Origin: Verrucomicrobiota bacterium
GTDB taxonomy: Bacteria > Verrucomicrobiota > Verrucomicrobiia > Limisphaerales > Fontisphaeraceae
Length of the DNA: 36,444 nucleotides
NCBI GenBank assembly: GCA_037139415.1
Contig: JBAXGN010000068.1
Location: 1 to 36,444, forward strand
Reading direction: 5' to 3'
Shown here: piece by piece, positions 5,832 through 31,457 of the stretch
How positions within the stretch are numbered: position 1 is the first letter of the stretch
Layout: each line of letters starts with the position of its first letter
Translations under genes and position numbers: made by a program
The notes under the pieces: generated by a model
Databases searched by the model: none
Seen by the model: the letters and a program-made list of their open reading frames with translations, nothing else
Told to the model about the DNA's origin: nothing

Positions 5832-5852
5832 TGGCGTTCGCCCCACGGAATC

Positions 5853-7271: not shown

Positions 7272-7273
7272 CC

Positions 7274-10533: not shown

Positions 10534-10548
10534 AAAAAGGAAAGTATT

Positions 10549-12564
10549 ATGAGTAGTGACAATGGACGCACTTTTGGCCGCCGACGTGGCGGCATGCGTT
10601 TCCGCCCCAGCGGCGGAGGACAAAAACACGGGCCGGGACCGCACCGGCCGGAAAAGGCCGCACAGGATGCGCGGGCCGAAGTGTTGGGCGACAAACCGGA
10701 GTCGGATTCGGTCTATGACCGTCGGCGCCACGAGCATGAGATCGAGCGCTCGGAGAACCTGGCGGCCGGCCTGCCTCCCGAAGGGGCAGCCAAGGTGGAT
10801 GCCGCTCCGGTGCCCGATGACGGCAAACGTTCCCAGAATTTCCGCGAGCCCAACCTGGAAACGCCGGCGGAAGTCAAAGAGGATTATGTGCCGGTCAAAG
10901 TGCCCGACCAGCCCAAGGGCTTCGTGGAGACGATCAAGCACGCCGCCACGCGGGTCATCAACAAGGTCCGCCGGCTCATCCGCCCGGTGAAGAAATCCCA
11001 TAAGGAAATCATCATCAATGTGGAATCGTTGGAAGTGCGTGTGGCCGTGCTCGAAGAAGGGCGGCTCGAAGACTTCACCATCGAACGCACCAGCGAAGAG
11101 CGTCTCGTCGGCAGTATCTTCAAAGGTAAAGTCCGCAACCTTGAGGACGGCCTCAAAGCCGCCTTCGTGGATATCGGCTTCGAGAAAAATGCCTTCCTGC
11201 ATTATTGGGATATCGTGCCTAACAGCTTCGACAGCGGTGTCGAAATTGTCGAACGCGAAAACCAAAACAAACGCCGCGAGCGCGACAAACCCAAGATCAC
11301 CCAGCGGGATATCCCCCGGCTTTATCCGCCCGGCAGCGAAATCATCGTGCAGGTCACCAAGGGCCCCATCGGCAGCAAAGGCCCGCGGGTCACCACCAAC
11401 CTCGTGCTTCCCGGTCGTTACCTGGTGCTGCTGCCCAACTCCGAGCAGAGTGGCATCTCCCGCAAGATCGAAAGCAATGAGGAACGTCAACGCCTTAAGA
11501 AAATCCTCCGGGGCCTTACTATTCCGGATGGCATGGGCGTGATTATCCGCACAGTTGGCGAGGGGCAACAGGCACGGTATTTCGTGCGCGACCTCGCGTT
11601 GCTGCTTGAAGAATGGGAGAAAATCCAGAAGCGCATGCGCAGCCAGTCGCTGGCCACGTGCGTCTTTGAAGAACCCGACCTCATTGAGCGCACGGTACGC
11701 GACTTCCTCACCGAGGATGTTGAGCGCATTGTCACCGACCATCCGCAAGCGTATGAGCGCATGCGCGAAATGATTGGCCGCATCTCCCAGCGTTCCGCCG
11801 GCAAGGTAAAACTCTACAATGAGCCACAGCCGGTCTTTGACCGCTTTAACATTACGCGCCAGTTGGATGGCGCCTTCTCCCGCCAGGTGCCCCTCAAGAG
11901 TGGCGGTTACCTGGTCATTGACGAAACCGAGGCCCTCGTGGCCATTGACGTCAACACCGGGCGGCACAAGGGCGGCAAAGACCAGGAATCCACCATCCTC
12001 AAGGTCAATCTTGAGGCGGCGGAAGAAATCTGCCGCCAACTGCGGCTGCGCAACATGGGCGGCCTCATTGTACTGGATTTCATTGATATGAAATCCCGGC
12101 GGGACCAGCAGAGTGTCTTCAACCGCATGCGCGACGGAGTGAAGCGTGATCGTGCCAAAACCCATGTGTTACCCATCTCCCAGCTTGGCTTGATGGAAAT
12201 GACGCGCCAACGCCACACCGAGAGTATGCGCTCGGCGGTCTATGACGACTGTCCGTACTGTAAGGGCCGCGGCAAGGTCAAGAGTTCCCTCACGATGAGC
12301 GTGGAAATCCAGCGCAAGCTCACCGAAATCTTCCGCAAACGCAGTCGGGATGAAAACGACTTCCAACTGCGGATCGTCGTGCATCCATCGGTGCTCGAGC
12401 GCCTGCGTAACGAAGACGAGAAACTGCTGATCGAGATGGAAAAACGATACTTCGGAAAAATGTCCTTCCGGCCCGACCCAGCCATCCATGCCGAACAGTT
12501 CAAAATCTACAACGCTGTGACCAACGAAGAACTGGCTGCCAGCCAGGTTCCGCACACGCACTGA
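10549..12564 (+). CDS. Ribonuclease E/G family endoribonuclease
   Basis: A 5'-end-sensing endoribonuclease for rRNA maturation and mRNA decay. After a ~150-residue charged, Gly/Arg/Pro-rich and probably disordered N-terminal extension come the S1/RNase H-like region (about 153-300), the DNase I-like catalytic domain with D467 (AIDVNTGR) and D510 (VLDFIDM), and a Zn-link CPYC (C568, C571). The spacings D to D = 43 and D to C = 58 equal those of E. coli RNase E (D303, D346, C404), strong support for an intact active site. There is no long C-terminal scaffold, so it is G-like at that end. A good Shine-Dalgarno (AAGGA, 10537-10541) supports the ATG. It is the last gene of the mre cluster; in E. 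coli rng also follows mreBCD. Confidence 0.95.
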   Translation: MSSDNGRTFGRRRGGMRFRPSGGGQKHGPGPHRPEKAAQDARAEVLGDKPESDSVYDRRRHEHEIERSENLAAGLPPEGAAKVDAAPVPDDGKRSQNFREPNLETPAEVKEDYVPVKVPDQPKGFVETIKHAATRVINKVRRLIRPVKKSHKEIIINVESLEVRVAVLEEGRLEDFTIERTSEERLVGSIFKGKVRNLEDGLKAAFVDIGFEKNAFLHYWDIVPNSFDSGVEIVERENQNKRRERDKPKITQRDIPRLYPPGSEIIVQVTKGPIGSKGPRVTTNLVLPGRYLVLLPNSEQSGISRKIESNEERQRLKKILRGLTIPDGMGVIIRTVGEGQQARYFVRDLALLLEEWEKIQKRMRSQSLATCVFEEPDLIERTVRDFLTEDVERIVTDHPQAYERMREMIGRISQRSAGKVKLYNEPQPVFDRFNITRQLDGAFSRQVPLKSGGYLVIDETEALVAIDVNTGRHKGGKDQESTILKVNLEAAEEICRQLRLRNMGGLIVLDFIDMKSRRDQQSVFNRMRDGVKRDRAKTHVLPISQLGLMEMTRQRHTESMRSAVYDDCPYCKGRGKVKSSLTMSVEIQRKLTEIFRKRSRDENDFQLRIVVHPSVLERLRNEDEKLLIEMEKRYFGKMSFRPDPAIHAEQFKIYNAVTNEELAASQVPHTH

Positions 12565-12800: not shown

Positions 12801-15800
12801 ATGAGTGATAATTATATGCGTGATAAGGATTTAAGTGTAATGCGAATGGGAGTGGTCTGCCTGTCAATCTGGTTTTTGGCTGCTGCCTTGGGAGCGGCCG
12901 CCCCACTTGGCACGGCGTTCACGTACCAGGGACAACTGCGTGATGGCGGTGCTGCCGCCAATGGGCTTTACGATCTGCAATTTTCCCTCTACGACGGGCC
13001 GACGGGCGGAGGCAGCTTGAGCGGGCCGATCACCCAGACTGGCACCAGCCTGAGCAATGGGACGTTTACCGTGTTTCTGGATTTTGGCTCGGGCATGTTC
13101 GATGGCAGCGCGCGCTGGCTTGAGATTGGGGTGCGCCCCAATGGCAGCGCCGGCGGATTTACCACCCTCACTCCGCGTCAGCCAGTCACGGCAACGCCAT
13201 ATGCGCTCTATTCGCCCAGTGCTGGCACCGCCGCCAGCGTGCCCGCCGCTGGTCTTACCGGCACCTTGTCCGATGCCCGGCTCTCCACCAATGTGGCGTT
13301 GCAGAACCGCAGCGCCACGTTTGCCGGCACGCTGAAGGCCACCGGATTTAGCGGTAACGCGGGCGGCCTGACCAATCTCAATGCCGCCAGTCTAACGGGA
13401 CCGCTCGCCCTTCAGATTGGAACCAAGCTGACCCAAATCCTCAGGGATGGCACCAATAATTCTGTTACGGCGGTGACCGTTGCGGGCCGCTATGCATACC
13501 TGGCCTGCGGGGTTCGAGGACTCCGGATTTACGACGTGGCCAATCCCGCCCAACCCGTGCTTTTATGCTTCACGAACTGGAACTTGCTGGTGATGGATGT
13601 GGCTGTGGCCGGCAACTATGCGTATTTGGCCTGCCATTCCGGTGGGCTAAGGATTTTTGATATCTCCACGCCTACGACCCCCGTCCAGGTGGGCGGGATC
13701 AACAACGGCGGCCAGGCTCTGAAGGTGGCCGTTTCGGACGCTTACGCTTACCTGGCCAACGATAGCGATGGCCTGCGCATTTATGATGTTTCCAATCCGG
13801 CCAATCCCGTCAACGTCGCGCACCTGACCGCGTCCAACTCGATCGGGCAAGTGGCCGTCGCAGGCCATTATGCCTACCTGGGTATGGGGGTTGGTGGGAT
13901 TGGTATTTATGATATTACCACCCCCGCCAACCCGGTCCTGGCCGGTCAGATCGCCGCCGAGGTAGACTGTTTCACCATCGCTGGAACCTACGCCTATGTC
14001 GGCGTGGTGACAGTGGGTTTGGCGATTTATGACCTTGCCGACCCGGTTCATCCCGTGCGGCTCTCGCAAGAATACAACCACGTCTTTTTCCGCGGCCTGG
14101 CAGTCAGCAGCCATTATGTCTGCGCCGCCGCCTTTAACTCCGGACTCTACATTTACGACGTGGCGGACAAAACCAATCCGGTGGTGGTGCAACAGAACCG
14201 TGACAGTACCGGCATGCGCACCCCAGCGGCGGCCGGCAATTATGTTTATGTGGCCACCGATGCGGATGGACTGCTGATCTATGCCTTGGAAGCATTCAAC
14301 GCCGTGGCCTTCCGCGGGGATGGGTTGGGGCTAACGAACATCATCGCAGATAACCTGGTGGGAACACTGGCGGACGCGCGGCTCAGTCCCAACGTGGTGC
14401 TGCAAAGCGGCAGCCCAACATTTTCTGGACGCGTGGCGGCCACCGCTTTTTCCGGAAACGGTGCCGGGTTGACGAATCTGGACGCGAACCAACTATCGGG
14501 AGCGCTGGGCGTCGCGCACGGAGTGGGGGTCAGCCAGACGAATGATGCGAGTGGAGTCAGTGGCGTGGCCGTGACCAGCAACAATGCGTTTCTCGTCTGC
14601 CTGGCCCACGACTTGCGCGTTTATGACCTTGCCAATCCCGACTCGCCGATATTGGTGGGCCAAACCAACACGGGCGGATCGCCGGTGGAGGTGGCGATTT
14701 CCGGCAGCCACGCCTACGTGGCTGACACGATGAACGGATTGCTCGTCTATGACCTTTCCAATCCGGCCAACCCGGTGCTGGTGGCCCGCACTAATCAAGG
14801 CGGCATCGCCCGAGGCGTGGCGGTATCCGGCAATTTCGTTTTTCTGGCCAACGATTACGATGGCGTGCGCATTTATGATGTTTCCAACCCGGCCAATCCG
14901 GTCGGCGTATGCCACCTTACCTCCAGCCCGCAAGCCAAGGGGGTGACGGTGGCCGGCAATTATGCCTATGTCGCCAATTATGCCGAAGGATTTCATATTT
15001 ATGAGGTGTCCAACCCGGCCGCCCCCATCCTGGTCAAAGTGCTTACCGAAACGGTCTTGGGCGGCGGTTACGCCCAGAATGCGACCATCGCGGGACGGTA
15101 TGCCTATCTGGCCAATGGAAGTTGGGGCCTGAGCATTTTTGACATCACGGACCCGCAAAACCCTACGTTCATCAGCCGCTGTCCTGGCGTGATGGGTTCT
15201 TCGGCCACAAGTGTCCGCATCGCGGGACGTTATGCCTGCCTGGCCAACGGGAGCGATGGGCTGCGCCTTTATGATATTTCCAACCCGGCCAGCCCCCTGG
15301 ACCTTGGCCATCTCGATACCGGTGGCTTGGCGGAGCGGGTGGCCATTGCCGGCAATGTGGCGTACGTGGCTGACACAATGCGGGGTTTACGCCTGGTGTT
15401 GCTGGAGACCGTGACGGCGCCAGCGTTTCAAGGGGATGGCTCTGGGATGACGAATCTAAATGCCGCCGGGATGACGCTGGGGACCCTGTCAGATGCCCGG
15501 CTTTCCCACAACGTGGCCCGGCTTGATGCCAATCAGACCTTCACCGGGATCAATGCCTTTGCCGGCCCTGGGTACTATCAAGGCTCAAATCGTTTTGATA
15601 ATCCGGCCAATTGGTTTGCCGGGAGTTTTGCTGGCAACGGTGCCGGGTTAACCAACGTGGATGCGTCTGCTCTGACGGGACCACTCTACGTTTCGAGCGG
15701 GCTCAACCTGAGTAAAATCACCAATGGCGGATTGAGCGGAGTCTTCAGCGTGGCAGTGGCTGGCACTTATCTCTATTCCGCTAATGGAGAGGATGGTTTG

Positions 15801-18800
15801 CGCGTCTTTAACCTCGCTAATCCCTCACAGCCGGTTCTGGTTGGGGGAACCAATGATGGGGGATATGCCGTGAGCGTCACCATCGTCAGCAATCGGTTGT
15901 ACGTGGCAGAAACTCTGCATGGATTGCACATTTACGACATTTCCACTCCCACCAATCCAGTTAGTCTGGCTGCGACCAACAACGGCGGTTGGGCGCAAAA
16001 TAGCACGGTAGTCGGTCATTATGCCTATCTGGCTGCGGATGGCGATGGCTTGCGCATTTATGACATTTCCAATCCGGTCAATCCGGTGAATGTGGGCCAT
16101 GCCAATGATGGTGGCCTCGCGCGGCAAGTCGTGGTGGTGGGAAATTACGCCTACCTGGCCTCGGTAAACAGCGGCTTGCGCATTTACGATGTCTCCAACC
16201 CCGCCAATCCCATGAGTGTGCGATTGCTCAATTCCTCGAGTACCATGGCAGTCGCCGCCGCTGGGCGATACCTCTGTTATGCCACCGTTAATGGCTGGGT
16301 GTGCATTGCGGATATCAGCGACCCGCTGAACGTGCTTCCGGTGAGTTACGTCAATACTGGCAAAACCCCATCCGCCCTGGCGATGACGGAGCGTTATCTC
16401 TGCCTGGGCCTCAGCTTTGAAGGCATGCTCATTTACGACCTGAGCAACCCGGCTAATCCGATCCAGGTGGCCACTACCAAGGATTATGGGTATGCCCAAA
16501 ATATCACCATTGCCGGCAATAATGCCATTCTGGCAAACGGCGCGGATGGGATTCGCATTTATGCACTCCAAGTGGCTAACGCTCCTGTTTATCAAGGCAG
16601 CGGGTTCGGGCTCACCGATATCCCGACCACCAGTCTGAACGGGACGCTAACAGACCGCCAACTCTCTGCCAACGTGGCATTGCTGAGTGCGAATCAGACA
16701 TTTTCAGGCATCAACAACCTGACCAATGCGGCGAACACCGTCGCGGGGGTATTTGTCGGTAGTTTCAGCGGCAATGGTGCAAGTTTGACCAATCTGAATG
16801 CGAGCACCTTGGCCAGCGGCACCCTCGTGGAGGCCCGGCTTTCCACCAATGTGACGCTGCTGAATGGGAATCAGACGTTCTCCGGTATTAATCGTCTCAC
16901 CAATACGGCGAATGCCATGTCGGGTGCATTTACCGGCGGCTTTAGCGGCAACGCCGCCGGACTGACCAATGTGAACGCCGCGAACGTGGTCGGCACCCTA
17001 GCGGACGCGCGACTCTCCACCAACGTGGCGCTACTAAACGCGAATCAGACGTTCGCGGGCGTAAACCAACTCACGAACGCCGCGAACACGCTGGCGGGTT
17101 CGTTTACCGGCAGCTTCAGCGGCAATGCGGGAAGCCTGACCAACTTGAATGCGAGCACCGTTGCCAGCGGCACCCTCGCCGAGGCCCGGCTTTCGACCAA
17201 TGTGACGCTGTTGAACGCGAACCAGGCGTTCTCCGGGGTGAACCAGCTTACCAACGCGGCGAATTCCTTGGCCGGAACCTTCACGGGAGCCTTTAACGGC
17301 AACGCCAGCGGGCTTACCAATGTGATCGGCACCAATGTGATCGGCACCCTGCCGGATGCGCGACTGTCCGCCAATGTGGCGTTGCTCAATGCCAATCAAG
17401 CGTTCGCCGGCGCCAACACGCTCACCAATGCGGCCAATACCCTGGCAGGAACGTTCACCGGCAGTTTCACAGGCAACGCCGGGAGCCTCACCAACCTGAA
17501 CGCCAGCACGCTGGCCAGCGGCACCGTGGCTGATGCGCGGCTCTCCGCCAATATCCCGCGCCTGAACGCCAACCAAAGCTTCACTGGCACCGTCTCGTTC
17601 TACCCTGTCGGGGCGCCATTTGCCGTGGGAAGTTCCACCCTGGTTGCCAACCTGAATGCCGATCAACTCGATGGGTTAAACGCCACCGCCTTCTGGCAGT
17701 TGGGTGGCAACAGTAACAGCACGGTTGGAGTCAATTTCCTGGGCACCACGGACAACCAGCCGTTGGAATTCAAAGTCAACAATCAGCGGGCGGTGCGCTT
17801 CGAACCGGGTGCTGGCGGCATGCCCAACCTGATTGCTGGCGCCAGCAATAATTCGGTTTTGCTGGCGGTTTCGGGTTCCACCATTGCCGGCGGCGCCAAC
17901 AACACCATTCAAGGTAGCACGGTCCATTCCAGCATCTCTGGCGGCATTTCCAACGTTGTACAAAGTAGCGCCTCCTTTGGAGCGATTGGCGGCGGTATGG
18001 GGAACGTCATCAGCGGGCTTTCCGTGGGCGCAACCATTCCTGGCGGCCAAAGCAACACGGCTGGCGGTTTCTGCTCCATTGCCATGGGCAACGCCTCCAT
18101 CGCCAATGGCTATGTGGCCACCGCCATGGGAAACAGCACCACATCCACTGCCAACTACGCCACCGCCATGGGCATGGGGACCACCGCCAGCGGCGGTGCG
18201 GCCACCGCCATGGGCATGAACACCATCGCCTCCGGTTTTGGTGCCACCGCTGTGGGCGGGAATACAATCGCCAATGGGGGATACTCCGTGGCTATGGGCT
18301 ATGGTTCGGTGGCCAGCAATGCTTACGGTTTTGCCTTGGGCTATCATGCGTTATCCTTGCACAACGGTTCGTTTGTCTGGGCGGATGCCACCGGGGCGGA
18401 TTTTCCCTCCACCGCCTTCAATCAATTCCTCATTCGTGCCTCCGGCGGCGTCGGCATCGGGATCACGAATCCCGTCAGCGCCTTACATGTGGCCGGCATT
18501 GTCACCGCCGACGCCTTTCGCGGCAATGGCGCCAATCTAACCAACGTCAGCGCGGGCAATCTAGCCAGCGGGACGCTGGCGGACACCCGGCTTTCGACCA
18601 ACGTGGCGTTGCTTAATGCCAATCAGACATTTTCCGGCGTCAACACGCTTTCCAACGTGGCCAACAGTCTGGCCGGCACGTTCACGGGTAACTTCAACGG
18701 CAACGCGGGCGGGGCGACCAACCTCAACGCCACCAACCTCGTCGGCATCTTGCCGGATGCGCGGCATTCGGCCAATATTCCACGCCTCAATACCAACCAA

Positions 18801-19496
18801 ACGTTTACCGGAACCGCCGCATTTGCTCCGGCCAGCGGAGCTCCATTTACGGTCGGCAATTCCATCCTGGTGACCAACTTGAACGCCGATTTATTGGATG
18901 GCTTAAACAGCGGAGCGTTCGCGTCGAATATCCACAACCATGCCGGCACGGACATCACCACCGGCACGCTGGCGGACAGCCGACTTTCCGCCAACGTGGC
19001 ACTACTGAATGCCGGCCAGACATTTACCGCCCCCCTCACCGTCAGCACGAACGTCAAGGTGAGCGGGTTGATCCGTCTGGGTACGGAAACCAACACCACG
19101 GATGCTCCTTATCCCCAGGGTTTAGTCATCCGCCGCATCAATAGCCTGGCCATCCAAGTCTCCAATGTCGTGGCCCGCAGCGACTATCTCACCTTGCAGC
19201 GCGATGGCACTTACGGCGGACTGGTGATCCGCTATCCCGCCGGGTGCCCGGCGCAAACGATCACGTGCATGGGTATGAGCGATCAGGGCGTCGCTGTCAA
19301 TTTTTACGCGGGCTGGACGACCAATCCCGCCGTTGCCGGCGTGCTGCAACTCTGCACGGATGCGCAAAATGCGGTCCACATCCAATGCACCTTTGGCAAT
19401 ACGTACAACGCGGGACACGTCACCCAAGTCAACATCTCACGCAATGGCTCGGACAACTTTTGGATCGGGACGGTTACTTCCACCTATAACCAATAG
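12801..19496 (+). CDS. Giant secreted repeat protein: three LVIVD propellers plus YadA-like head
   Basis: A 2231-aa protein with no catalytic domain seen. Order: signal peptide; a domain beginning AFTYQGQLRDGG (about 40-140); three blocks of seven LVIVD-type repeats (~42 aa each, consensus VAGNYAYLANGxxGLRIYDVSNPANP) at about 225-495, 589-868 and 984-1256; linkers with GTLxDARLSxNV between the blocks; six alternating 58/59-aa repeats (1271-1620); a NADQLDGLN element; a GG-SN-rich stretch; seven 14-aa YadA-head-like repeats (about 1759-1856); a GSFVWAD...FLIRASGGVGIG segment; then more linker repeats and a unique C-terminal domain. ATG 12840, with AAGGAT upstream and directly preceding the hydrophobic signal, may be the true start. 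It is probably surface-exposed or secreted, for adhesion or matrix. No cell-wall sorting signal is recognised. Confidence 0.85.
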   Translation: MSDNYMRDKDLSVMRMGVVCLSIWFLAAALGAAAPLGTAFTYQGQLRDGGAAANGLYDLQFSLYDGPTGGGSLSGPITQTGTSLSNGTFTVFLDFGSGMFDGSARWLEIGVRPNGSAGGFTTLTPRQPVTATPYALYSPSAGTAASVPAAGLTGTLSDARLSTNVALQNRSATFAGTLKATGFSGNAGGLTNLNAASLTGPLALQIGTKLTQILRDGTNNSVTAVTVAGRYAYLACGVRGLRIYDVANPAQPVLLCFTNWNLLVMDVAVAGNYAYLACHSGGLRIFDISTPTTPVQVGGINNGGQALKVAVSDAYAYLANDSDGLRIYDVSNPANPVNVAHLTASNSIGQVAVAGHYAYLGMGVGGIGIYDITTPANPVLAGQIAAEVDCFTIAGTYAYVGVVTVGLAIYDLADPVHPVRLSQEYNHVFFRGLAVSSHYVCAAAFNSGLYIYDVADKTNPVVVQQNRDSTGMRTPAAAGNYVYVATDADGLLIYALEAFNAVAFRGDGLGLTNIIADNLVGTLADARLSPNVVLQSGSPTFSGRVAATAFSGNGAGLTNLDANQLSGALGVAHGVGVSQTNDASGVSGVAVTSNNAFLVCLAHDLRVYDLANPDSPILVGQTNTGGSPVEVAISGSHAYVADTMNGLLVYDLSNPANPVLVARTNQGGIARGVAVSGNFVFLANDYDGVRIYDVSNPANPVGVCHLTSSPQAKGVTVAGNYAYVANYAEGFHIYEVSNPAAPILVKVLTETVLGGGYAQNATIAGRYAYLANGSWGLSIFDITDPQNPTFISRCPGVMGSSATSVRIAGRYACLANGSDGLRLYDISNPASPLDLGHLDTGGLAERVAIAGNVAYVADTMRGLRLVLLETVTAPAFQGDGSGMTNLNAAGMTLGTLSDARLSHNVARLDANQTFTGINAFAGPGYYQGSNRFDNPANWFAGSFAGNGAGLTNVDASALTGPLYVSSGLNLSKITNGGLSGVFSVAVAGTYLYSANGEDGLRVFNLANPSQPVLVGGTNDGGYAVSVTIVSNRLYVAETLHGLHIYDISTPTNPVSLAATNNGGWAQNSTVVGHYAYLAADGDGLRIYDISNPVNPVNVGHANDGGLARQVVVVGNYAYLASVNSGLRIYDVSNPANPMSVRLLNSSSTMAVAAAGRYLCYATVNGWVCIADISDPLNVLPVSYVNTGKTPSALAMTERYLCLGLSFEGMLIYDLSNPANPIQVATTKDYGYAQNITIAGNNAILANGADGIRIYALQVANAPVYQGSGFGLTDIPTTSLNGTLTDRQLSANVALLSANQTFSGINNLTNAANTVAGVFVGSFSGNGASLTNLNASTLASGTLVEARLSTNVTLLNGNQTFSGINRLTNTANAMSGAFTGGFSGNAAGLTNVNAANVVGTLADARLSTNVALLNANQTFAGVNQLTNAANTLAGSFTGSFSGNAGSLTNLNASTVASGTLAEARLSTNVTLLNANQAFSGVNQLTNAANSLAGTFTGAFNGNASGLTNVIGTNVIGTLPDARLSANVALLNANQAFAGANTLTNAANTLAGTFTGSFTGNAGSLTNLNASTLASGTVADARLSANIPRLNANQSFTGTVSFYPVGAPFAVGSSTLVANLNADQLDGLNATAFWQLGGNSNSTVGVNFLGTTDNQPLEFKVNNQRAVRFEPGAGGMPNLIAGASNNSVLLAVSGSTIAGGANNTIQGSTVHSSISGGISNVVQSSASFGAIGGGMGNVISGLSVGATIPGGQSNTAGGFCSIAMGNASIANGYVATAMGNSTTSTANYATAMGMGTTASGGAATAMGMNTIASGFGATAVGGNTIANGGYSVAMGYGSVASNAYGFALGYHALSLHNGSFVWADATGADFPSTAFNQFLIRASGGVGIGITNPVSALHVAGIVTADAFRGNGANLTNVSAGNLASGTLADTRLSTNVALLNANQTFSGVNTLSNVANSLAGTFTGNFNGNAGGATNLNATNLVGILPDARHSANIPRLNTNQTFTGTAAFAPASGAPFTVGNSILVTNLNADLLDGLNSGAFASNIHNHAGTDITTGTLADSRLSANVALLNAGQTFTAPLTVSTNVKVSGLIRLGTETNTTDAPYPQGLVIRRINSLAIQVSNVVARSDYLTLQRDGTYGGLVIRYPAGCPAQTITCMGMSDQGVAVNFYAGWTTNPAVAGVLQLCTDAQNAVHIQCTFGNTYNAGHVTQVNISRNGSDNFWIGTVTSTYNQ
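16611..17660 (+). repeat. Tandem 351-bp dimeric repeats inside the giant gene
   Basis: Unit starts at 16611, 16785, 16962, 17136, 17313 and 17487 alternate in length at 58, 59, 58, 59, 58 codons. Type A units (16611, 16962, 17313) carry short linkers such as NVVGTLADARLS; type B units (16785, 17136, 17487) carry LNASTLASGT. The higher-order unit is therefore 117 codons (351 bp), present three times, with the last B unit diverging after NANQSFTG. The nucleotide similarity should allow in-frame expansion or contraction. Confidence 0.85.
18075..18368 (+). repeat. Seven 42-bp YadA-head-like repeats inside the giant gene
   Basis: Seven consecutive 14-codon units start at 18075 with the pattern (A/S)xAMGxxTxASGxx, as in the left-handed beta-roll head of trimeric autotransporter adhesins. 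The last unit is degenerate. In known adhesins such repeats trimerise; whether that happens here is inference. Confidence 0.8.
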
Positions 19497-21271: not shown

Positions 21272-23302
21272 ATGAAATCATTTTTGACCGCGAGACGACT
21301 CAGGTGCGCTGTCGCATTGTTCTGCCTTTGGTCTTGCCTGGCAGGCGCTGCGGATTATCTGGCTTCCGCTAGTGCGGCGGAGGATTTAACTGCGCTCTCG
21401 CTTCAGGAACTCATGGCAGTGAAGATCGAGCATGTGTCCACCCCGTCGCGATTCACGCAAAAGGCGAGCGAGGCGCCGTCGTCGGTGTCGGTGATCACGT
21501 CGGAGGAGATCAAAATTTACGGTTACCGCACGTTGGCAGATGTGTTGCGTAGCGTGCGCGGGCTGTACGTCAGCTATGATCGGAGTTATTCGTATCTTGG
21601 GGTCCGTGGCTTCAGCCGGCCTTCGGATTATAATTCCCGTGTGCTGGTGTTGGTGGACGGGCATCGTCTGAACGACGGGCTCTTTGGTGGCGGGTATATT
21701 GGTCACGAGTTCATTCTCGACGTGGACCTCATTGACCGCGTGGAGGTTGTGCGTGGTCCCAGCTCCTCGCTTTACGGCAGCAGCGCGTTCTTCGGCGTGA
21801 TCAATGTTATCACCAAGCGCGCTGCGGATTTGAAGAATGTGGAGGTGTCCGGGGAGGTTGGCGGCCAGGAGAGTTACAAGGGGCGGTTCAGTTACGCTGG
21901 CACGTTTACCAATACGGGTGTGCAGTTTGTACTTTCCGGATCGTACTACGACAGTGCTGGTGACCGTCATCTCTACTTTCAGGAGTTCGATACCCCCGCC
22001 AATAACCATGGGATAGCGAATAACCTCGACCATGAACAAGCCTGGAATCTGTTCGGCAGCTTATCTTGGAAGGACCTAACTTTATCTGCCGCCTATGTGG
22101 CGCGCCAGAAATACATCCCCACCGCCTCATGGGACACGCTGTTTAATGATCCGCGCTACAACGCCCAGGATGATCGCGGCTACATTGATCTGAAGTGGCA
22201 ACGCGCACTCAACGAGGACAATGAACTTCTGGCACGTGTCTATTTCGACGACTACCGCTACACGGCGGATTATCCGAATCCCCCCGCGGCTCCGCCTGGC
22301 GCGGCGATGAGCCGCGACGACGATCTGGCCCAGACCGTAGGGGGGGAAATCCAGTGGACGCGGCACTGGCGCCAGCATGTGTTTACTTTTGGCGCGGAAA
22401 TGCGCGACCATCTTCATCAGGACCAGTCCTTTTATGATGTGAACCCGCGCACCGTCTATCTGGACGACCATCGCTCCAGTTTGGACGCGGCCTTCTATGC
22501 GCAAGGGGATTTCACGGTTCTAACCAACCTGCATTTGAACGCCGGTGTGCGCTACGATTACTTTGAAATGTTTGGCGGCAACGCCAATCCGCGGGCTGGC
22601 CTGATCTATAACCCGTGGCAGCCAACCACCTTCAAGCTGCTTTATGGAACGGCATTTCGTGCGCCGAATATGTTTGAAACCCGCTACCAGGTGCTGCCGG
22701 CCAACGTCGGTAATCCAGATCTGTCCCCAGAGAAAATCCAGACCTACGAAGCCGTCTATGAGCAGCGGCTGCCGGCCAATTTGCAACTGACCTTGAGCGG
22801 TTATTACTACCATATTGATGATCTCATGTACCAGGTCGAGGTGGCACCCAACTCGTTTATGTTCAGAAACACTGGCGGTGCCAACGCCAAGGGGATCGAG
22901 ACGGAACTCGCGTGGTTGCCACCCTGCGGCGCGCGTGCACGTGCCAGCTACGCACTCCAACGCGCCGAGGACGCCACCACCGGCGCTATCCTGGTCAATT
23001 CGCCCCAGCACCTGGCCAAGCTCAACGTTCTCGCCCCACTCTGGCAGGACAAGGTCTTCACCGGCGTGGAAGTGCAATACTCCGGTCGCGTGCAAACCAT
23101 CACGGGTTCGGCTGTGGACGACTTCTGCGTTATGAATTGGACGCTTTACAGTCAGCGGATCATCAAAGGCGTGGAGGCTTCTGCTAGTGTCTATAACCTG
23201 TTCGACACGCGTTACGCTTTTCCCGGTGGCCCGGGACATATCCAGGACCGGCTCTGGCAGGACGGACGGTCATTTCGTGTAAAACTCACGTATCGCTTCT
23301 AA
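21272..23302 (+). CDS. TonB-dependent outer-membrane receptor
   Basis: A 676-aa outer-membrane receptor. A signal peptide (about residues 1-25) is followed by DLTALSLQELMAVKIEHVST, typical of receptors of the cobalamin/siderophore type, then a plug domain (APSSVSVITSEEI, VRGFSRPSD, VLVLVDGHRLNDG, IDRVEVVRGPSSSLYGSSAFFGVINVITK split over residues ~70-180) and a C-terminal beta-barrel ending in Phe (KLTYRF), as outer-membrane proteins do. No clear TonB box is seen. ATG 21272 is preferred over TTG 21206 because it gives a proper signal peptide. The ligand is unknown: no riboswitch or transport genes are adjacent. It is followed by a YfiR-like gene and a hybrid kinase, so it may feed a signal to them. 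Confidence 0.93.
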   Translation: MKSFLTARRLRCAVALFCLWSCLAGAADYLASASAAEDLTALSLQELMAVKIEHVSTPSRFTQKASEAPSSVSVITSEEIKIYGYRTLADVLRSVRGLYVSYDRSYSYLGVRGFSRPSDYNSRVLVLVDGHRLNDGLFGGGYIGHEFILDVDLIDRVEVVRGPSSSLYGSSAFFGVINVITKRAADLKNVEVSGEVGGQESYKGRFSYAGTFTNTGVQFVLSGSYYDSAGDRHLYFQEFDTPANNHGIANNLDHEQAWNLFGSLSWKDLTLSAAYVARQKYIPTASWDTLFNDPRYNAQDDRGYIDLKWQRALNEDNELLARVYFDDYRYTADYPNPPAAPPGAAMSRDDDLAQTVGGEIQWTRHWRQHVFTFGAEMRDHLHQDQSFYDVNPRTVYLDDHRSSLDAAFYAQGDFTVLTNLHLNAGVRYDYFEMFGGNANPRAGLIYNPWQPTTFKLLYGTAFRAPNMFETRYQVLPANVGNPDLSPEKIQTYEAVYEQRLPANLQLTLSGYYYHIDDLMYQVEVAPNSFMFRNTGGANAKGIETELAWLPPCGARARASYALQRAEDATTGAILVNSPQHLAKLNVLAPLWQDKVFTGVEVQYSGRVQTITGSAVDDFCVMNWTLYSQRIIKGVEASASVYNLFDTRYAFPGGPGHIQDRLWQDGRSFRVKLTYRF

Positions 23303-23396
23303 AACACATCCGTCGCAAGCACTACCCTATCAAATTGCACCAGAGTTGAAGACACGTATCACCATCAGGAAAGGAAGCGGAAGCCGTCGAGCGGTA

Positions 23397-23990
23397 ATGG
23401 ATGGCTGTGGTCCAGGGTGGTGGCGGGTCGCGGACAGTCTCGTGTTGCTGTTGGCTTGGTGGGGGCTCTTGGTTACAAGTCATGCCACTACGCCTCCCGG
23501 GCGCAGCGAGTACGAACTCAAGGCGGCCTTTCTCCACAAATTCGCCATGTTTGTCGAATGGCCGGTGCAGTCGTTTGACACAACCAATGCCCCTATTGTT
23601 ATCGGCATTCTGGGGCGGGACCCGTTCGGGCCGAAGTTGGAGGCGGTGCTCGCCAGCAAGCGTGTCCATGGTCGCGCTGTGGAGTTTCAGCGCTTTGCCA
23701 GAGTTGAAGATGTCCTTTTGGCACGGTGTCAGATGCTGTTCATCGCGTCATCGGAACAGGCACGGTTGCCTGCCATTCTCGAAGCGATCAAGACGGTCCC
23801 CTTGCTCACGGTGGGGGACTCGCCGGGCTACGGCGAAACGGGCGTGATGATCAACCTGGTGGTGCGCGAGCAGAGTCTGCGCTTCGAGATTAATCGTCAG
23901 TCCGCCGTGCGGGTGGGCTTGCAAGTCAGTTCCCAGTTACTTGAGCTGGCCCTCCCCACTCGGGAGCGTCCTCAATCCCGTTCCCAATAA
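23397..23990 (+). CDS. YfiR-like (DUF4154) periplasmic protein
   Basis: A 197-aa secreted protein with a hydrophobic signal (LVLLLAWWGLLVTSHA) and the YfiR-family start YELKAAFLHKFAMFVEWP, followed by the alternating beta/alpha pattern (IVIGILGRDPFG, VGDSPGYGETGVMINLVV, LRFEINRQSA). In Pseudomonas, YfiR is a periplasmic inhibitor of the CHASE8 diguanylate cyclase YfiN. The mature part has only one Cys, so the disulfides of P. aeruginosa YfiR cannot form here. ATG 23397 is chosen for the signal peptide; TTG 23346 is an in-frame alternative. AAGGAAG lies about 20 bases upstream, too far for a normal site. The kinase gene starts two bases after the stop. Family secure; inhibitory role inferred. 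Confidence 0.88.
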   Translation: MDGCGPGWWRVADSLVLLLAWWGLLVTSHATTPPGRSEYELKAAFLHKFAMFVEWPVQSFDTTNAPIVIGILGRDPFGPKLEAVLASKRVHGRAVEFQRFARVEDVLLARCQMLFIASSEQARLPAILEAIKTVPLLTVGDSPGYGETGVMINLVVREQSLRFEINRQSAVRVGLQVSSQLLELALPTRERPQSRSQ

Positions 23991-23992
23991 CC

Positions 23993-26320
23993 ATGCGCTG
24001 CCTCCTTGATCTTCCGCTCCGTCGAAAATTGCTGGTGCTGGTAATGGCCAGCAGCACACTCGCCCTGCTGTTGGCGGCGGGCTCGTTCAGCGTCTATGAA
24101 TGGTTCATTCTCCGCGACACCGCGCGGCGCGACGTGCAAACCCAGGCGGAAATCCTCGCTGCCAACGTCAGTGCCGCCGTCGAGTTTGGCGATGCGGACC
24201 ACGCCCGCCGCATCCTGCGGGTACTGCAGATGCGCCCGCAGTTCGACCTTGCTTGTGTCTTTGATGAAAACCGGCGCTTGCTGGCCGGTTACACGAACGA
24301 ATTCAATCCCGAGCCGGTCCGCTGGCTCAATCCGATTCCCCAAGGTGTTCAATCCGAGGCGGGGCATCTCGTGGTTTTTCAGCCGGTCATGCATGATAAC
24401 CACGTTGCCGGCACGCTCTATCTGCGGTCGGAATTCAGCCCCATCCGGGCGCGTTTTGGGCAGTACCTGGGTTTGGCGATGCTGGTGCTGCTGGCCTGCT
24501 GGTGGATTGCCTTTGGGCTGGCCGCACGCCTCCAACGCATTGTCTCCCAGCCCATCCTTGAGCTGGCCCGGACTGCCCGTGACGTGACGGAGCGCAAGGA
24601 CTACTCGTTACGGGCCGTCAGTCAGAGCCATGATGAAGTGGGGCTCCTCATTGAGGGGTTCAACGAGATGTTGACGCAAATTCAGGCCCGCGACGTTGCC
24701 CTGCAAAAGACGCAGGATGATCTTGAACGCCGGGTGACCGAGCGCACCAGCCAGCTTCAGGATGAAATTGTCCAGCGCCGCCGCATTGAAGCCGCGTTGG
24801 CCGATGAAAAGGAGCGCCTCGCGGTCACGCTCCGCTCCATTGGTGACGCCGTAGTGGCCACGGATCGCGAGGGTTGCATCGTGCTGTTCAATCCGGTGGC
24901 GGAACAACTCACCGGCTGGGGTGCGGCCGAAGCTGCGACCCGTCCCCTGCCGGAAGTGCTGCAACTATTTCATGATAAGACGCGGCAGCCTTGTGAGAAC
25001 CCCGTGACCCGCGTGCTCGCCAGCGGCGGTCCGGTGGAACCCAGTGAAGGCACCCTGCTCGTCTCGCGCGACGGCACGCAGCGCCTCATTGCCAGCAGCA
25101 GCGCGCCGATCCGCGATCGTGCCGGCCAGATCATCGGCGTCGTGTTGGTATTCCGCGATGTCACTGAGAAGGAGCGCACGACGCAGGAACTGCTCAAGGC
25201 CAGCAAACTCGAATCCATCGGTCTGCTGGCGGGCGGCATCGCGCATGACTTCAACAATATTCTCACGGCCATTCTCGGCAATATTTCGCTCGCCCGGTTG
25301 ATCGCGCAACCGCAGGACGAACTGGCTGAGGCCTTGCTCCACGCGGAGAAAGCCGCCGCCCGCGCCGGCGATCTCACCCGCCAACTCTTGACGTTCTCCA
25401 AGGGTGGTTCGCCGATGAAGCAGAGCGCCTCGCTGGCGGAGATCATCAAGGAAACCACCGCCTTTGTCCTGCACGGTTCCAACGTCGGGCTGCAACTTGA
25501 GTTGGCCACTGACTTGTGGCCGGCCAGCATTGACGTGGGCCAGATCAGTCAGGTCATCCACAATCTCGTGCTCAATGGCATCCAAGCCATGCCCAAGGGC
25601 GGCACGTTGGACGTGCGCGCGGCCAACGTTTCGATCCCGGAACATCACGGTACGGTGCTGCGTCCCGGCCGCTATATCTCGATCACCATCCAGGACACCG
25701 GCACCGGCATCGCGCCGGAGCACTGTCAGCGCATCTTCGACCCGTACTTCACCACGAAGAAACAAGGCAGCGGCCTCGGTTTGGCGACCACGTACTCCAT
25801 CATCCGCAAACACGAAGGGAACATCACGGTGCAGTCGGAACTCGGGCGGGGCACCACCTTTCAGATTCATCTGCCGGCATCCAGTACGCCAACGGTCGCC
25901 CCAGCGGAGCCGCCCCCCGAGCCGTTGGCTGGGCAGGGCCGCATTCTGATCATGGATGACGAGGAGCCCATCCGCTCCTTGGTGATTCGGATGCTTCAAC
26001 CGTTGGGCTACGAGGTCAAGGCGGCGGCGGACGGTGCTGAAGCCTTGCGTATTTACGAAGAGGCCCGCGCCGCCCACCAGCCGATTTCCGTCGTGATTCT
26101 TGATCTCACCGTTCCCGGTGGCATGGGTGGATTGGAGGCGTTGCAACGCCTCCGCGCCCTGGATCCCCACCTCAAAGCCATCGTCTCAAGCGGTTACTCA
26201 GAAGATCCCGTCATGGCCCACCATCGCGAGCACGGTTTTGATGCGATGGTTACCAAACCCTACCGGCTTCAAGAGTTCACGCACACCTTGCAGGAGGTGT
26301 TGAAGCAAGTGAAGGTTTGA
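23993..26320 (+). CDS. Hybrid sensor histidine kinase (CHASE8-HAMP-PAS-HisKA-HATPase-REC)
   Basis: A 775-aa inner-membrane kinase. Membrane segments lie at about residues 12-35 and 159-180 and flank a periplasmic sensor whose start (SVYEWFILRDTARRDVQTQA, ILAANVSAAVEFGD) is of the CHASE8 type found in YfiN. Then follow HAMP (about 181-235), a coiled coil, PAS (about 275-390), HisKA with H418 (GGIAHDFNN), HATPase with N-box NLVLNGIQAM, DTGTGI and GSGLGLAT, and a receiver domain (about 650-770) with acidic DDE and acceptor D704. The chain ends in the receiver with no output domain, so phosphate probably passes on or the receiver acts as a sink. It starts two bases after the YfiR-like gene, so they are an operon. 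No cognate regulator is adjacent. Confidence 0.93.
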   Translation: MRCLLDLPLRRKLLVLVMASSTLALLLAAGSFSVYEWFILRDTARRDVQTQAEILAANVSAAVEFGDADHARRILRVLQMRPQFDLACVFDENRRLLAGYTNEFNPEPVRWLNPIPQGVQSEAGHLVVFQPVMHDNHVAGTLYLRSEFSPIRARFGQYLGLAMLVLLACWWIAFGLAARLQRIVSQPILELARTARDVTERKDYSLRAVSQSHDEVGLLIEGFNEMLTQIQARDVALQKTQDDLERRVTERTSQLQDEIVQRRRIEAALADEKERLAVTLRSIGDAVVATDREGCIVLFNPVAEQLTGWGAAEAATRPLPEVLQLFHDKTRQPCENPVTRVLASGGPVEPSEGTLLVSRDGTQRLIASSSAPIRDRAGQIIGVVLVFRDVTEKERTTQELLKASKLESIGLLAGGIAHDFNNILTAILGNISLARLIAQPQDELAEALLHAEKAAARAGDLTRQLLTFSKGGSPMKQSASLAEIIKETTAFVLHGSNVGLQLELATDLWPASIDVGQISQVIHNLVLNGIQAMPKGGTLDVRAANVSIPEHHGTVLRPGRYISITIQDTGTGIAPEHCQRIFDPYFTTKKQGSGLGLATTYSIIRKHEGNITVQSELGRGTTFQIHLPASSTPTVAPAEPPPEPLAGQGRILIMDDEEPIRSLVIRMLQPLGYEVKAAADGAEALRIYEEARAAHQPISVVILDLTVPGGMGGLEALQRLRALDPHLKAIVSSGYSEDPVMAHHREHGFDAMVTKPYRLQEFTHTLQEVLKQVKV

Positions 26321-27878: not shown

Positions 27879-30800
27879 ATGAGCACCATGCGTAACTATT
27901 TTATGGGCGTTGCCTTGGGCGGCGTCCTGTCCGTCCTGCCGGCATTTGTGGCGCGCGGCACGGTTACGGAGTCGGCCCGGGAGATTCCCATCGCCAAGGA
28001 GGTGGATGTGGTGGTGGTGGGCGGATCATCCGGGGCGGCCAGCGCCGCCATGGCGGCGGCAGAGGCGGGAGCCAGGGTTTTCCTGCTCGCCCCGCGCTCG
28101 TATCTGGGCGAGGACATGTGCTCCACGCTGCGGCTGTGGTTGGAGGAGTCCGAGCAGCCCCAATCCCCCTTGGCCCGCCGCATCTTCGCCGAACCCGGCG
28201 AGGATGACGCGAGCGTGGGTGGGTCCGGACAGCGGGAATCGAACGCCCTGGATTATTCATACACCACCAGCATTCCCGCCGTCCTGAAACATCGGGACAC
28301 GGAGCCGCCGTCCCGATTGAAAGACGGGCTATTCACCGATTCCAGCCGGCACAGCGTGCAATATAACGGGGACGTGGCAGTCATCGCCGACTTGGGCAGC
28401 GCCAAACCGGTCAAAGAGGCGCGCGTGGTGTGCTACTACCGGGCGGATTCGGACTTCAACCCCGGCAGCGTGAGCGTTTCGACCAGCGCTGACAAAGTCA
28501 AGTGGGTCGAGGGCGGCAAGTTTCCCTGCACGGCCCCGGTCAAAGAAGTGTTACAGATGACGCTGCCGATCGGCGCGTCGGCGCGTTACGTCAAATTCGA
28601 CTTCCAGCGGGTGGCAGGCGGCAAGCGTTTGTTGCTGGGGGAAATCACGCTGATTGGGGCTGGCGGTGAAGTCGCAAAACCCGCCGCTCCAGTGTTCCAA
28701 ACGTCGAAAAGCGGTGAGTCCAAAGGGTTCGTGAAGCTGGTCAAGCCCATGCAGGCCAAGCGGGTGCTTGACGAGGCGCTGGTGGCAGCCAAGGTGGATT
28801 TCCTCTTCAGTTGTTATCCCACTGAATTGCTGGTGGACGCGCAGAACAAGCCGTGCGGTGTGGTGATGGTCAACCGCTCCGGCCGCCAGGCGGTCCTTGC
28901 CAAGGTCATCATTGACGCCACGCCACGGGGCATCGTGGCGCGCATGGCGGGCGCCCAGTTCCAGCCGTATCCCGCCGGGGAATACGTCTTCCAACGGGTG
29001 GTCGTGGGCGGCGAACCGGTGGCGAACCCGAAGCTCACCGCACGCAAGTTGAGCCAGACTTACAAGTCGGTGCGCACGTTCAAGGACGGCTCCAAGGACG
29101 CGCCCGTGATCGAATACACGCTGCGCCTCCCGATGCGCGATGGCAGTTTCGCGTCCTTTGCCGAGGCCGATCACCAGGCGCGCGATTTGACGTGGCAATC
29201 CGGTCTCCTGGACGAATCAGAAATCCTGTTTCAAGTGCCGCCTGACCCGATGCGCGGCAAGAAAAGTATCACGCAACCATGGACAGGAGTCGCGGCGCTG
29301 GACCTGGATGCGTTCCGCCCGCATGGCACCAGCCGTTTTTACGTGCTGGGGGGATGCGCTGATTTGCCGCGCGATCAGGCCGCGCTCGTGTTGCGCCCGC
29401 TCGCGCTCATGGACCTGGGGTCGCGCGTGGGCAAAGCTGCCGCCGCCGAGGCCAAATCGTTGCCCGCGCCGGTCGGTCCGACGGTGGCGGCGGGCACCGC
29501 CATCCATGAGGCTCCCAAAACCAGCACGTTCACGGGCGAGTTGAGGGAAACGCTCACCGGCCTGCGCCCCGTCGAACGCAAAGCGGCGAAGCTGCATTCG
29601 CCGGAGCGGGCATTGCCAGTCCTGGGCATGTACGATTGCGTGGTGGTGGGCGGCGGCACGGGCGGCGCGCCCGCCGGCATCGGCGCAGCGCGGGGCGGCG
29701 CCAAGACCCTGCTGGTTGAGTATCTGCACGGCTTGGGCGGCGTGGGCACACTGGGCATGATCGGCTCGTATTATCACGGTTATCGCGGCGGATTCACCGC
29801 CGAGGTGGATAAGGGCGTGGCCACGATGCACGATCCGAAACGCCCCGCGCCGCGAACGGGCGCGTGGGAGATCAACCCCAAGGTGGAATGGTGGCGGCAA
29901 GCCAACCGCAAGGCCGGGGCCGAGGTTTGGTTCGGCGTACTCGGCTGCGGCGCGCTGGTGGAGAACGGCGTGGTCAAGGGCGTCATCCTCGTCACACCGG
30001 AAGGGCGTGGTGTGGTCATTGCCAAGACGGTGATTGATTCCACGGGCAACGCCGATGTCGCCGCCGCCGCCGGCGCGAAGTACGTCTATACGGATGCCGA
30101 TGATGTCGGCGTGCAAGGCACGGGTTTGCCGCCGCGCGAGCTGGGCGGCGGCTCCATCAACACCGATTACATGTTCGCCGATGATACGGATGTCGTGGAT
30201 TTCTGGCATCAATTCATCCTATCGCGCCAGCGTTTCCGGGGCGCGTATGATTTGGGGCAGCTCGTGGATACGCGGGAGCGCCGCCGCATCGTAGGGGACA
30301 TCACGATTTCGCCCATGGACATCATCCTCGCCCGCACGTACCCGGATGCGCTGGTGTTGTCCAAGAGTAATTTCGACTCGCACGGGTTCACGGTGCATCC
30401 GTTGTTTGTGGCGATGCCGCCGGACAAGAAGGGCTTGAGCTTGTGCGTGCCGATGCGCGCGTTGTTGCCGCAGGGGTTGGATGGCATCCTGGTGACGGGC
30501 CTGGGCGTCAGCGCGCACCGCGACGCGATGCCGGTGATCCGCATGCAGCCGGACATCCAGAACCAGGGCTACGCGTGCGGCCGCGCCGCCGCGATGGTGG
30601 CCCACAGCGCGGACACGATCCGCAAAGTGGATATGAAAGCGTTGCAGAAGCATCTGGTGGAAGTCGGCATCATCCCGGAGGAGGCGCTCGCGTATAAAGA
30701 CTCCTTCCCCATGCCGCTGGCGCGCGTGGCCGAAGCGGTGGCGCAGGTGACGAAAGCCGCCAACGCCACCAACGAGGTGGATGGCGTGATCCGGGATCGC

Positions 30801-31457
30801 GATGCGCTCGCCATCATTTTCGCGCAACCGCAGGATTCCATTGCGCTGTTGGAAAAGGCGCACGCCGCCGCCCAAGGCGAGAAAAAACTCGCCTACGCGC
30901 ACATCCTGGCGATGCTCGGCAACGCCAGCGGCGGACCCACGTTGCTGGCGCACATCCGCAACGCCAAGGGCTTTGACACCGGCTGGAATTACAAGGGCAT
31001 GAGCCAGTTTGGCCGCAGCTTGAGCGAGCTGGATTCATACATCGTCGCCTTGGGCCGCACCCACCAGCCCGGCGCGTTCGAGGTCATCGCCGAAAAAGCG
31101 CGCACGCTGGATGCCGCCAAGGAATTCTCGCATCACCGCGCCTGCGCCATGGCGTTCGAAACGATCGGCGACCGCCGCGCGGCGGGACTCCTCTTCCAAG
31201 TCCTCCAGCAACCCGGCATGATGGGGCACTCGACGACGACCATCGGTAGCGCCCAACAACAAATGCTGCCCGGCAAAACCGAAAACGTGCAGCGCAACGA
31301 ATCCCTGCGCGAGATTGTGCTCGCGCGGGCGCTCTACCATTGCGGGGATCAGGACGGCCTGGGCGAAAAACTCCTCAAACAATACGCGGCGGACCTCCGC
31401 GGCCATTACGCTCGCCATGCCCAGGCGGTGTTGGACGCGGGCAAGCCGGGGAAATAA
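27879..31457 (+). CDS. Exported double FAD-dependent oxidoreductase with discoidin-like insert
   Basis: A 1192-aa protein with an N-terminal signal (about residues 5-28). The first FAD-binding Rossmann unit (DVVVVGGSSGAASAAMA, from 43) is followed by a discoidin/F5-8C-like beta insert (about 140-260) and then the rest of the first oxidoreductase (IIDATPRGIVARMAG, DLPRDQAALVLRPLALMDLG). A second complete FAD unit begins at about 587 (DCVVVGGGTGGAPAGIGAA) and includes VIDSTGNADVAAAAG and GILVTGLGVSAHRDAMPVIR. The last ~230 residues are helical and HEAT-like. Both halves resemble the FAD-dependent oxidoreductase family (PF12831-type) common in PVC and Bacteroidota. The substrate is unknown; the divergent Gfo/Idh/MocA gene suggests carbohydrate oxidation. 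ATG 27888 is an alternative start. Confidence 0.88.
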   Translation: MSTMRNYFMGVALGGVLSVLPAFVARGTVTESAREIPIAKEVDVVVVGGSSGAASAAMAAAEAGARVFLLAPRSYLGEDMCSTLRLWLEESEQPQSPLARRIFAEPGEDDASVGGSGQRESNALDYSYTTSIPAVLKHRDTEPPSRLKDGLFTDSSRHSVQYNGDVAVIADLGSAKPVKEARVVCYYRADSDFNPGSVSVSTSADKVKWVEGGKFPCTAPVKEVLQMTLPIGASARYVKFDFQRVAGGKRLLLGEITLIGAGGEVAKPAAPVFQTSKSGESKGFVKLVKPMQAKRVLDEALVAAKVDFLFSCYPTELLVDAQNKPCGVVMVNRSGRQAVLAKVIIDATPRGIVARMAGAQFQPYPAGEYVFQRVVVGGEPVANPKLTARKLSQTYKSVRTFKDGSKDAPVIEYTLRLPMRDGSFASFAEADHQARDLTWQSGLLDESEILFQVPPDPMRGKKSITQPWTGVAALDLDAFRPHGTSRFYVLGGCADLPRDQAALVLRPLALMDLGSRVGKAAAAEAKSLPAPVGPTVAAGTAIHEAPKTSTFTGELRETLTGLRPVERKAAKLHSPERALPVLGMYDCVVVGGGTGGAPAGIGAARGGAKTLLVEYLHGLGGVGTLGMIGSYYHGYRGGFTAEVDKGVATMHDPKRPAPRTGAWEINPKVEWWRQANRKAGAEVWFGVLGCGALVENGVVKGVILVTPEGRGVVIAKTVIDSTGNADVAAAAGAKYVYTDADDVGVQGTGLPPRELGGGSINTDYMFADDTDVVDFWHQFILSRQRFRGAYDLGQLVDTRERRRIVGDITISPMDIILARTYPDALVLSKSNFDSHGFTVHPLFVAMPPDKKGLSLCVPMRALLPQGLDGILVTGLGVSAHRDAMPVIRMQPDIQNQGYACGRAAAMVAHSADTIRKVDMKALQKHLVEVGIIPEEALAYKDSFPMPLARVAEAVAQVTKAANATNEVDGVIRDRDALAIIFAQPQDSIALLEKAHAAAQGEKKLAYAHILAMLGNASGGPTLLAHIRNAKGFDTGWNYKGMSQFGRSLSELDSYIVALGRTHQPGAFEVIAEKARTLDAAKEFSHHRACAMAFETIGDRRAAGLLFQVLQQPGMMGHSTTTIGSAQQQMLPGKTENVQRNESLREIVLARALYHCGDQDGLGEKLLKQYAADLRGHYARHAQAVLDAGKPGK

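Follow-up and report, generated by a model that had tools for sequence, protein, structure and literature searches.

Organization of the locus

The window analyzed here is a stretch of 36,444 nucleotides (contig JBAXGN010000068.1, assembly GCA_037139415.1) from a Verrucomicrobiota genome of 7.9 Mb that is 98% complete. Three consecutive genes on the plus strand encode a TonB-dependent receptor (21272-23302), a YfiR-like (DUF4154) protein ending at 23990, and a CHASE8 histidine kinase without a GGDEF domain (23993-26320). A first-pass annotation of the DNA had described this trio, and all three open reading frames are found in place with Pfam support. It had also put the YfiR-like and kinase genes two bases apart, in agreement with a stop codon that ends at 23990 and an ATG at 23993.

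The genes flanking the set encode coiled-coil, Lon-type, and Gfo/Idh proteins (Pfam scan). Elsewhere in the window, a row of genes for Mfd, MreB, MreC, PBP2, RodA, and RNase E/G (867-12564, plus strand) forms an ordinary cell-shape cluster that is unrelated to the set. A predicted surface protein of 2231 aa (12801-19496, plus strand) carries the repeats GNGAGLTNLNAS and YLA..GLRIYDVSNPANPV as well as a stretch resembling trimeric autotransporter heads, and a protein of 1192 aa (27879-31457, plus strand) has two FAD-dependent oxidoreductase parts with an F5/8-type stretch between them.

By domain counts, the whole host genome holds two DUF4154, two Plug, and three CHASE8 domains. Two complete receptor-YfiR-CHASE8 sets account for every DUF4154 and Plug domain and leave a single CHASE8 domain over, so the three-gene grouping is not due to chance. 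The second set likewise ends in a CHASE8 kinase (L032, G000:C19:13500-27000), and its receptor is the sole other TonB plug protein of the genome. The third CHASE8 hybrid kinase (L351:2375-4756, minus strand, contig C70) has a separate receiver gene beside it; no YfiR, ABC_sub_bind protein, or receptor was found in its vicinity.

The TonB-dependent receptor

The receptor gene and its features are as follows.

21272-23302, plus strand: TonB-dependent receptor of 676 aa with ATG start, signal peptide, plug, and β-barrel (PF07715, PF00593)
21383-21451, plus strand: receptor residues 38-60, DLTALSLQELMAVKIEHVSTPSR, a periplasmic segment that precedes the plug and is common to YfiR-linked receptors
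21464-21799, plus strand: Plug domain (PF07715)

Pfam assigns 81.8 bits to the Plug domain PF07715 (cut-off 23.9) and 136.8 bits to PF00593 (cut-off 27), and the phmmer relatives of the protein are the colicin I receptor Cir and BtuB. An STN domain was not detected in a Pfam scan at E 0.1. NCBIfam (June 2026) lists models for a related set of proteins, namely NF053590 (TOL_0244 receptor), NF053591 (YfiR-like, TOL_0243), and NF053592, titled “sensor histidine kinase, YfiR-like protein-associated.” Since the receptor reaches 149.2 bits with NF053590, for which the curated cut-off is 645, it is not a TOL_0244 equivalog, and on sequence grounds its ligand is probably different too.

One TonB_C protein of the host genome scores over the TIGR01352 cut-off, and two below the cut-off lie beside ExbD genes. 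The protein over the cut-off (L094, contig C2) is located in a tol-like cluster of TolR/ExbD-like, TonB/TolA-like, and TolB-like proteins. In view of these matches, the notion that the genome is devoid of TonB and that its receptors cannot import was dropped; a TonB system may be present.

The YfiR-like periplasmic protein

The second gene contains the following features.

23346-23990, plus strand: YfiR-like periplasmic protein (PF13689, NF053591); the start is uncertain, either TTG at 23346 or an in-frame ATG at 23397
23511-23951, plus strand: DUF4154 (YfiR) domain (PF13689)
23727-23729, plus strand: Cys128, the sole cysteine of the DUF4154 domain, at the position of Pseudomonas aeruginosa Cys110 (phmmer alignment)

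The protein scores 149.8 bits with PF13689 (cut-off 24.9) and 141.9 bits with NF053591 (cut-off 125), and stays at 36 bits, below the cut-off of 85, with NF053586, the equivalog model of P. aeruginosa-type YfiR. Its AlphaFold model (pLDDT 93.4) superimposes on P. aeruginosa YfiR with a Z-score of 18.2 (146 residues, rmsd 2.4, 20% identity); the substrate-binding family of 3lkv (Z 13.6) and 3lft (Z 13.2) ranks second. In the phmmer alignment, F162 and L183 of P. aeruginosa YfiR are F180 and L201, and the C-terminal part LRFEIN...SSQLLELA corresponds to the surface with which P. aeruginosa YfiR binds YfiN and YfiB (PMC3375315, PMC4655355). No relatives were found in the viral contigs searched.

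The whole frame contains two cysteines, Cys128 and, within the signal/upstream part, Cys21. P. aeruginosa Cys71, Cys145, and Cys152 are replaced by Gly87, Gly163, and Asn170 (phmmer alignment), and the pairs Cys71-Cys110 and Cys145-Cys152 are thus both absent. The earlier statement that the protein has no paired cysteines is accurate, yet one of the four P. aeruginosa cysteines is kept. At most one cysteine is present in 42 of 64 YfiR domains from the phylum.

The CHASE8 hybrid histidine kinase

The third gene encodes the transmembrane partner.

23993-26320, plus strand: hybrid histidine kinase of 775 aa, CHASE8-HAMP-PAS-HisKA-HATPase_c-REC (Pfam, NF053592)
24110-24424, plus strand: CHASE8 periplasmic sensor (PF17152, 69.5 bits, cut-off 27)
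24173-24193, plus strand: AAVEFGD (aa 61-67), equivalent to the AAVVFxD motif in YfiN
24530-24685, plus strand: HAMP (PF00672)
24815-25162, plus strand: PAS (PF00989)
25223-25408, plus strand: HisKA with AHDFNN and the phospho-acceptor His418
25535-25879, plus strand: HATPase_c with N and G boxes
25943-26290, plus strand: single, C-terminal receiver domain that keeps Asp655/656, the phospho-acceptor Asp704, and Lys755

The protein reaches 211 bits with NF053592 (cut-off 194). HisKA, HATPase_c, and REC all retain their catalytic residues, which makes it a hybrid kinase, and a GGDEF domain was not found in the Pfam scan. The sensor is flanked by two transmembrane helices (aa 13-31 and 159-177). 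Its assignment as CHASE8 in the first-pass annotation held when it was checked, both through the PF17152 score and through an AlphaFold model of residues 1-236 (pLDDT 93.2) that takes on an extracytoplasmic PAS/CACHE-type fold. This model resembles WalK (Z 16.4, an integrative model), CitA (12.5), and the LapD-type domain of CdgS9 (11.2). WalK is governed by extracytoplasmic proteins. Two residues of AAVEFGD, F65 and D67, show conservation of 90% or more across 49 relatives. In YfiN, the substitutions A66V, A67P, A67V, V68A, and F70L in the corresponding motif render the protein insensitive to YfiR (PMC3375315).

Conservation of the gene order

The gene order was followed through three sets of loci. 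The first was selected by DUF4154 within the phylum, where 43 of 388 genomes gave 72 matches and 64 genes were mapped. A CHASE8 gene lies next to YfiR in 55 of 59 testable cases, and the receptor is found directly upstream in 43 of 58 and not in the other 15. Most gaps amount to 20 bp or less, and four of the 64 YfiR genes are fused to a kinase. In one genome (G321, e.g. L058) the number of DUF4154 genes reaches ten; tandem receptor-YfiR-kinase copies and fusions with a stalk are among them.

For the second set, a DUF4154 alignment proved too diverse as a contig query and was replaced by the receptor sequence, which provides a better, YfiR-blind test of adjacency. Selection by the receptor alone gave 117 relatives in genome contigs, of which 80 were kept and 74 had room downstream. 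They stem from Verrucomicrobia/Lentisphaerae, Deltaproteobacteria and Geobacter relatives, Nitrospira, Acidobacteria, Planctomycetes, and others. The next gene encodes YfiR in 49 of the 74 loci and a PF04392 (ABC_sub_bind) protein in 15, and a CHASE8 kinase or cyclase nearly always follows. Of the ten remaining loci, at least five also have YfiR: behind a second receptor in three, and in divergent orientation in two. With 64 of 74 receptor-selected loci accounted for in this way, the set is more than a local curiosity.

The third set comprises 40 receptors of the Pseudomonadales scored by NF053590. YfiR is the next gene in 27 of them, including eight of the nine that score over the curated cut-off, and 13 of the 40 have no adjacent YfiR. 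A lack of conserved adjacency elsewhere would have counted against the earlier reading; instead, strong conservation of the three-gene order is seen across five or more groups at phylum level.

The three genes very probably constitute one signaling unit, in which the receptor likely signals through the YfiR-like protein to the kinase. A different account would have the kinase autoregulate the receptor operon, with YfiR as a sensor of envelope stress or redox state that is merely co-transcribed. P. aeruginosa YfiR indeed responds to the loss of DsbA and to reducing agents without YfiB (PMC3375315), and about one quarter of the YfiR-CHASE8 pairs of the phylum have no adjacent receptor. This account is improbable, given that the window protein does not have the cysteine pairs on which redox control depends and that the frequency of YfiR or ABC_sub_bind behind the receptor is far above what accidental co-transcription would produce.

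The segment preceding the plug

In YfiR-linked receptors the plug is preceded by the sequence D-L-T-x-L-S-L-E-E-L-M and a TonB-box-like stretch. ABC-linked receptors have instead E-E-x-L-L-F-Q-E/D-I-P-S-V-Y-G in front of the plug. A segment HMM was built from the receptor-selected set and the Pseudomonadales NF053590 set, and a strict regular expression misses many true cases. In the DUF4154-selected set of the phylum, the HMM gives more than 10 bits, with a median of 52.4, for 43 of 43 YfiR-linked receptors. Eight receptor-rich genomes supplied another 70 receptors for comparison, of which those above 38 bits are the six YfiR-linked ones, one of the ABC type, and one near a contig end whose neighbor is not visible. 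The remaining receptors of these genomes stay at or below 24 bits, many of them with a classical LPEVVVTA-type box. The segment therefore distinguishes YfiR-linked from ordinary receptors within the same genomes, and residues 38-60 of the window receptor are a candidate for the YfiR contact plus a TonB-box-like stretch.

Receptors without an adjacent YfiR also carry the segment in all three locus sets, so it marks a receptor clade. All 12 of the 12 Pseudomonadales genomes with such orphan receptors have a YfiR elsewhere. The idea of repeated covariation of the segment with the middle protein was dropped; the ABC-linked receptors form one clade (one-clade AU test, p 0.894), which makes the change of segment type a single event and a single contrast.

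Fusions of YfiR to the kinase

Eighteen natural YfiR-kinase fusions were found, four in genomes of the phylum and 14 in Pseudomonadales (loci L033-L036 and L326-L338). An N-terminal YfiR is followed by a spacer, one transmembrane helix, and HisKA-HATPase_c, mostly with REC. The spacer measures 153-229 residues (median 181). Its best hydrophobic period lies at 3.48-3.54 in all 18 fusions and it contains 0-5 prolines and glycines, resembling a heptad coiled coil; the window-averaged heptad signal clearly exceeds shuffles (z ≥2) in nine of the 18. At 1.5 Å per residue, 181 residues span about 27 nm, approximately the width of the periplasm. A receptor lies 146 bp upstream of fusion L033 and within 350 bp in seven of 13 Pseudomonadales fusion loci (eight if one at a distance of 2.2 kb is counted). 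A YfiR held at the outer membrane by such a stalk would have the expected appearance of a receptor reader.

No CHASE8 domain was detected in the 18 fusions. Binding of YfiR to CHASE8 is thus not the sole output route, and since a fused YfiR cannot diffuse, sequestration is not the sole mode of coupling between YfiR and kinase. The permanent tether is easier to reconcile with a sensing head than with an inhibitor that comes off, as would be expected if the YfiR-like protein activated the kinase upon receptor occupancy. This opposite sign is a variant of the receptor-YfiR-kinase explanation, and the confidence in the two overlaps; activation appears somewhat unlikely in view of the YfiR proteins studied in the papers searched, which inhibit (PMC3375315, PMC4655355).

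Exchange of the middle protein

In the 15 ABC-linked loci, a PF04392 protein of about 317 aa is encoded between the receptor and the CHASE8 gene. A sister system with ABC_sub_bind in the YfiR position and a CHASE8 kinase or cyclase next to it is seen at L103, L107, L111, L121, L123, L130, and L132, and further loci of this type are L134, L136, L141, L142, L144, L167, and L173. Judged from the structural model, YfiR is one lobe of a PF04392-type fold, as in the Dali result in PMC4655355. A profile-profile comparison of YfiR with ABC_sub_bind aligns 25 C-terminal columns at a probability of 4.9%, and the suggested relatedness is a case of fold (the model match and PMC4655355) rather than of sequence.

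A tree built from 147 CHASE8-HAMP sequences shows one change in the type of partner (shuffles: mean 13.6, minimum 11) and seven changes of output between histidine kinase and GGDEF (shuffles: mean 11.7, minimum 9). One Geobacteraceae genome even holds two close CHASE8 paralogs (distance 0.47) with GGDEF at L164 and a kinase at L166. Because of the one partner change versus seven output changes, CHASE8 tracks its periplasmic partner and not its output. Contact between the two would require such tracking, but a single partner switch is insufficient as proof of contact.

A full substrate-binding protein in the YfiR slot is what would be expected if the receptor imported a ligand that YfiR or ABC_sub_bind binds and presents to CHASE8, as in LuxP-LuxQ. 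The resemblance of the YfiR model to the PF04392-type structures 3lkv and 3lft and the TonB system that may exist in the host genome agree with this main rival, for which a receptor-YfiR contact is not needed. YfiR, however, is a single lobe and has no inter-lobe cleft; the fusion stalk is long enough for YfiR to reach the outer membrane, and linked receptors stand out by the segment in front of their plug. Import followed by sensing is therefore regarded as unlikely, and a direct-contact form, in which the state of the receptor passes via the YfiR-like protein to the CHASE8 kinase, is favored with modest confidence.

Proposed mechanism

In this direct-contact form, the receptor would bind an extracellular ligand, and the three gene products would act as one trans-envelope unit. 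On the periplasmic side, the YfiR-like protein would sense the state of the receptor (ligand bound or TonB engaged), with the segment that precedes the plug as the most likely point of readout. The same protein would bind CHASE8 at the conserved AAVxFxD face and thereby shift the TM2-HAMP helix, which would alter autophosphorylation of His418 and phosphotransfer to Asp704. The phosphoryl group of Asp704 may subsequently be passed on to an unlinked Hpt protein or response regulator. If the analogy to YfiBNR holds, YfiR would sit on CHASE8 in the resting state and be drawn away by the receptor. A long-chain alkane is a lead for the ligand, taken from a single relative.

Comparison with known systems

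The set shares the YfiR fold and C-terminal surface with YfiBNR (AwsXRO, TpbB) of P. aeruginosa, as well as a CHASE8-HAMP transmembrane partner with an AAVxFxD motif whose gene adjoins yfiR. It differs in having a TonB receptor in place of the OmpA-like lipoprotein YfiB, a hybrid kinase instead of a GGDEF diguanylate cyclase, and one of the four YfiR cysteines. The first-pass annotation had viewed the locus as following the logic of YfiBNR, except that a receptor sits where YfiB would be and the output is a kinase. This is a fair description, but an output of this kind was already on record. In 2012, Malone et al. reported YfiR-YfiN pairs in which sensor or hybrid kinases replace the GGDEF domain (PMC3375315); this modularity is published and the families are in NCBIfam. 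These variants (e.g. in Thauera MZ1T) have the CHASE8-type sensor, the sensor or hybrid kinase output, and YfiR in common with the window, and no outer-membrane receptor was described for them. A TonB receptor does occupy the place of YfiB, but the wording that it replaces YfiB implied descent from YfiBNR, and the data point to a much wider class. As the output changed repeatedly and the middle protein was exchanged, YfiBNR may be one branch of this class.

The window YfiR-like protein and kinase belong to the NCBIfam TOL_0243/TOL_0244 set by their curated cut-offs, whereas the receptor lies far below that of NF053590. FecA-FecR-FecI likewise uses a TonB receptor that reports its occupancy across the envelope; the window receptor has no STN domain and no adjacent FecR or sigma factor (FecI), and a periplasmic adaptor and a kinase are present instead. 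TOL_0244, which shares 40.3% similarity with OmpS, is upregulated sevenfold on the n-C28 alkane (PMC6304351). OmpS (B5T_01485) of Alcanivorax dieselolei B-5, described as the alkane sensor that starts a signaling cascade (PMC6304351, PMC5174103), resembles the present case as a receptor reported to signal, and differs in that no YfiR link is published for it in the open-licence papers searched. In the same literature, no paper was found that joins a TonB receptor to YfiR, and the exchange in the middle slot, the receptor segment, and the stalk fusions are absent from it and thus new.

Significance

It is quite possible, if tentative, that these loci represent a widespread and undescribed form of TonB-receptor signaling apart from FecA/FecR. 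An adaptor of the YfiR/substrate-binding superfamily would read the receptor near its plug and act on CHASE8 kinases or cyclases, or on a kinase of its own through a periplasm-spanning coiled-coil stalk. YfiBNR would be a branch in which a lipoprotein took over from the receptor, and receptors of the OmpS/TOL_0244 type could sense alkanes by the same route. If so, many TonB receptors of Verrucomicrobiota, Geobacter relatives, Nitrospira, Acidobacteria, and Gammaproteobacteria would be sensors coupled to phosphorelays or c-di-GMP, beyond their role in import. There would be a concrete route from binding at the outer membrane to the cytoplasm, and with it a mechanism by which OmpS-type receptors sense alkanes; the literature searched gives no explanation of how these receptors connect with the cytoplasm. 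The gene set, conserved over many bacterial phyla, probably tells the cell interior what the receptor has bound.
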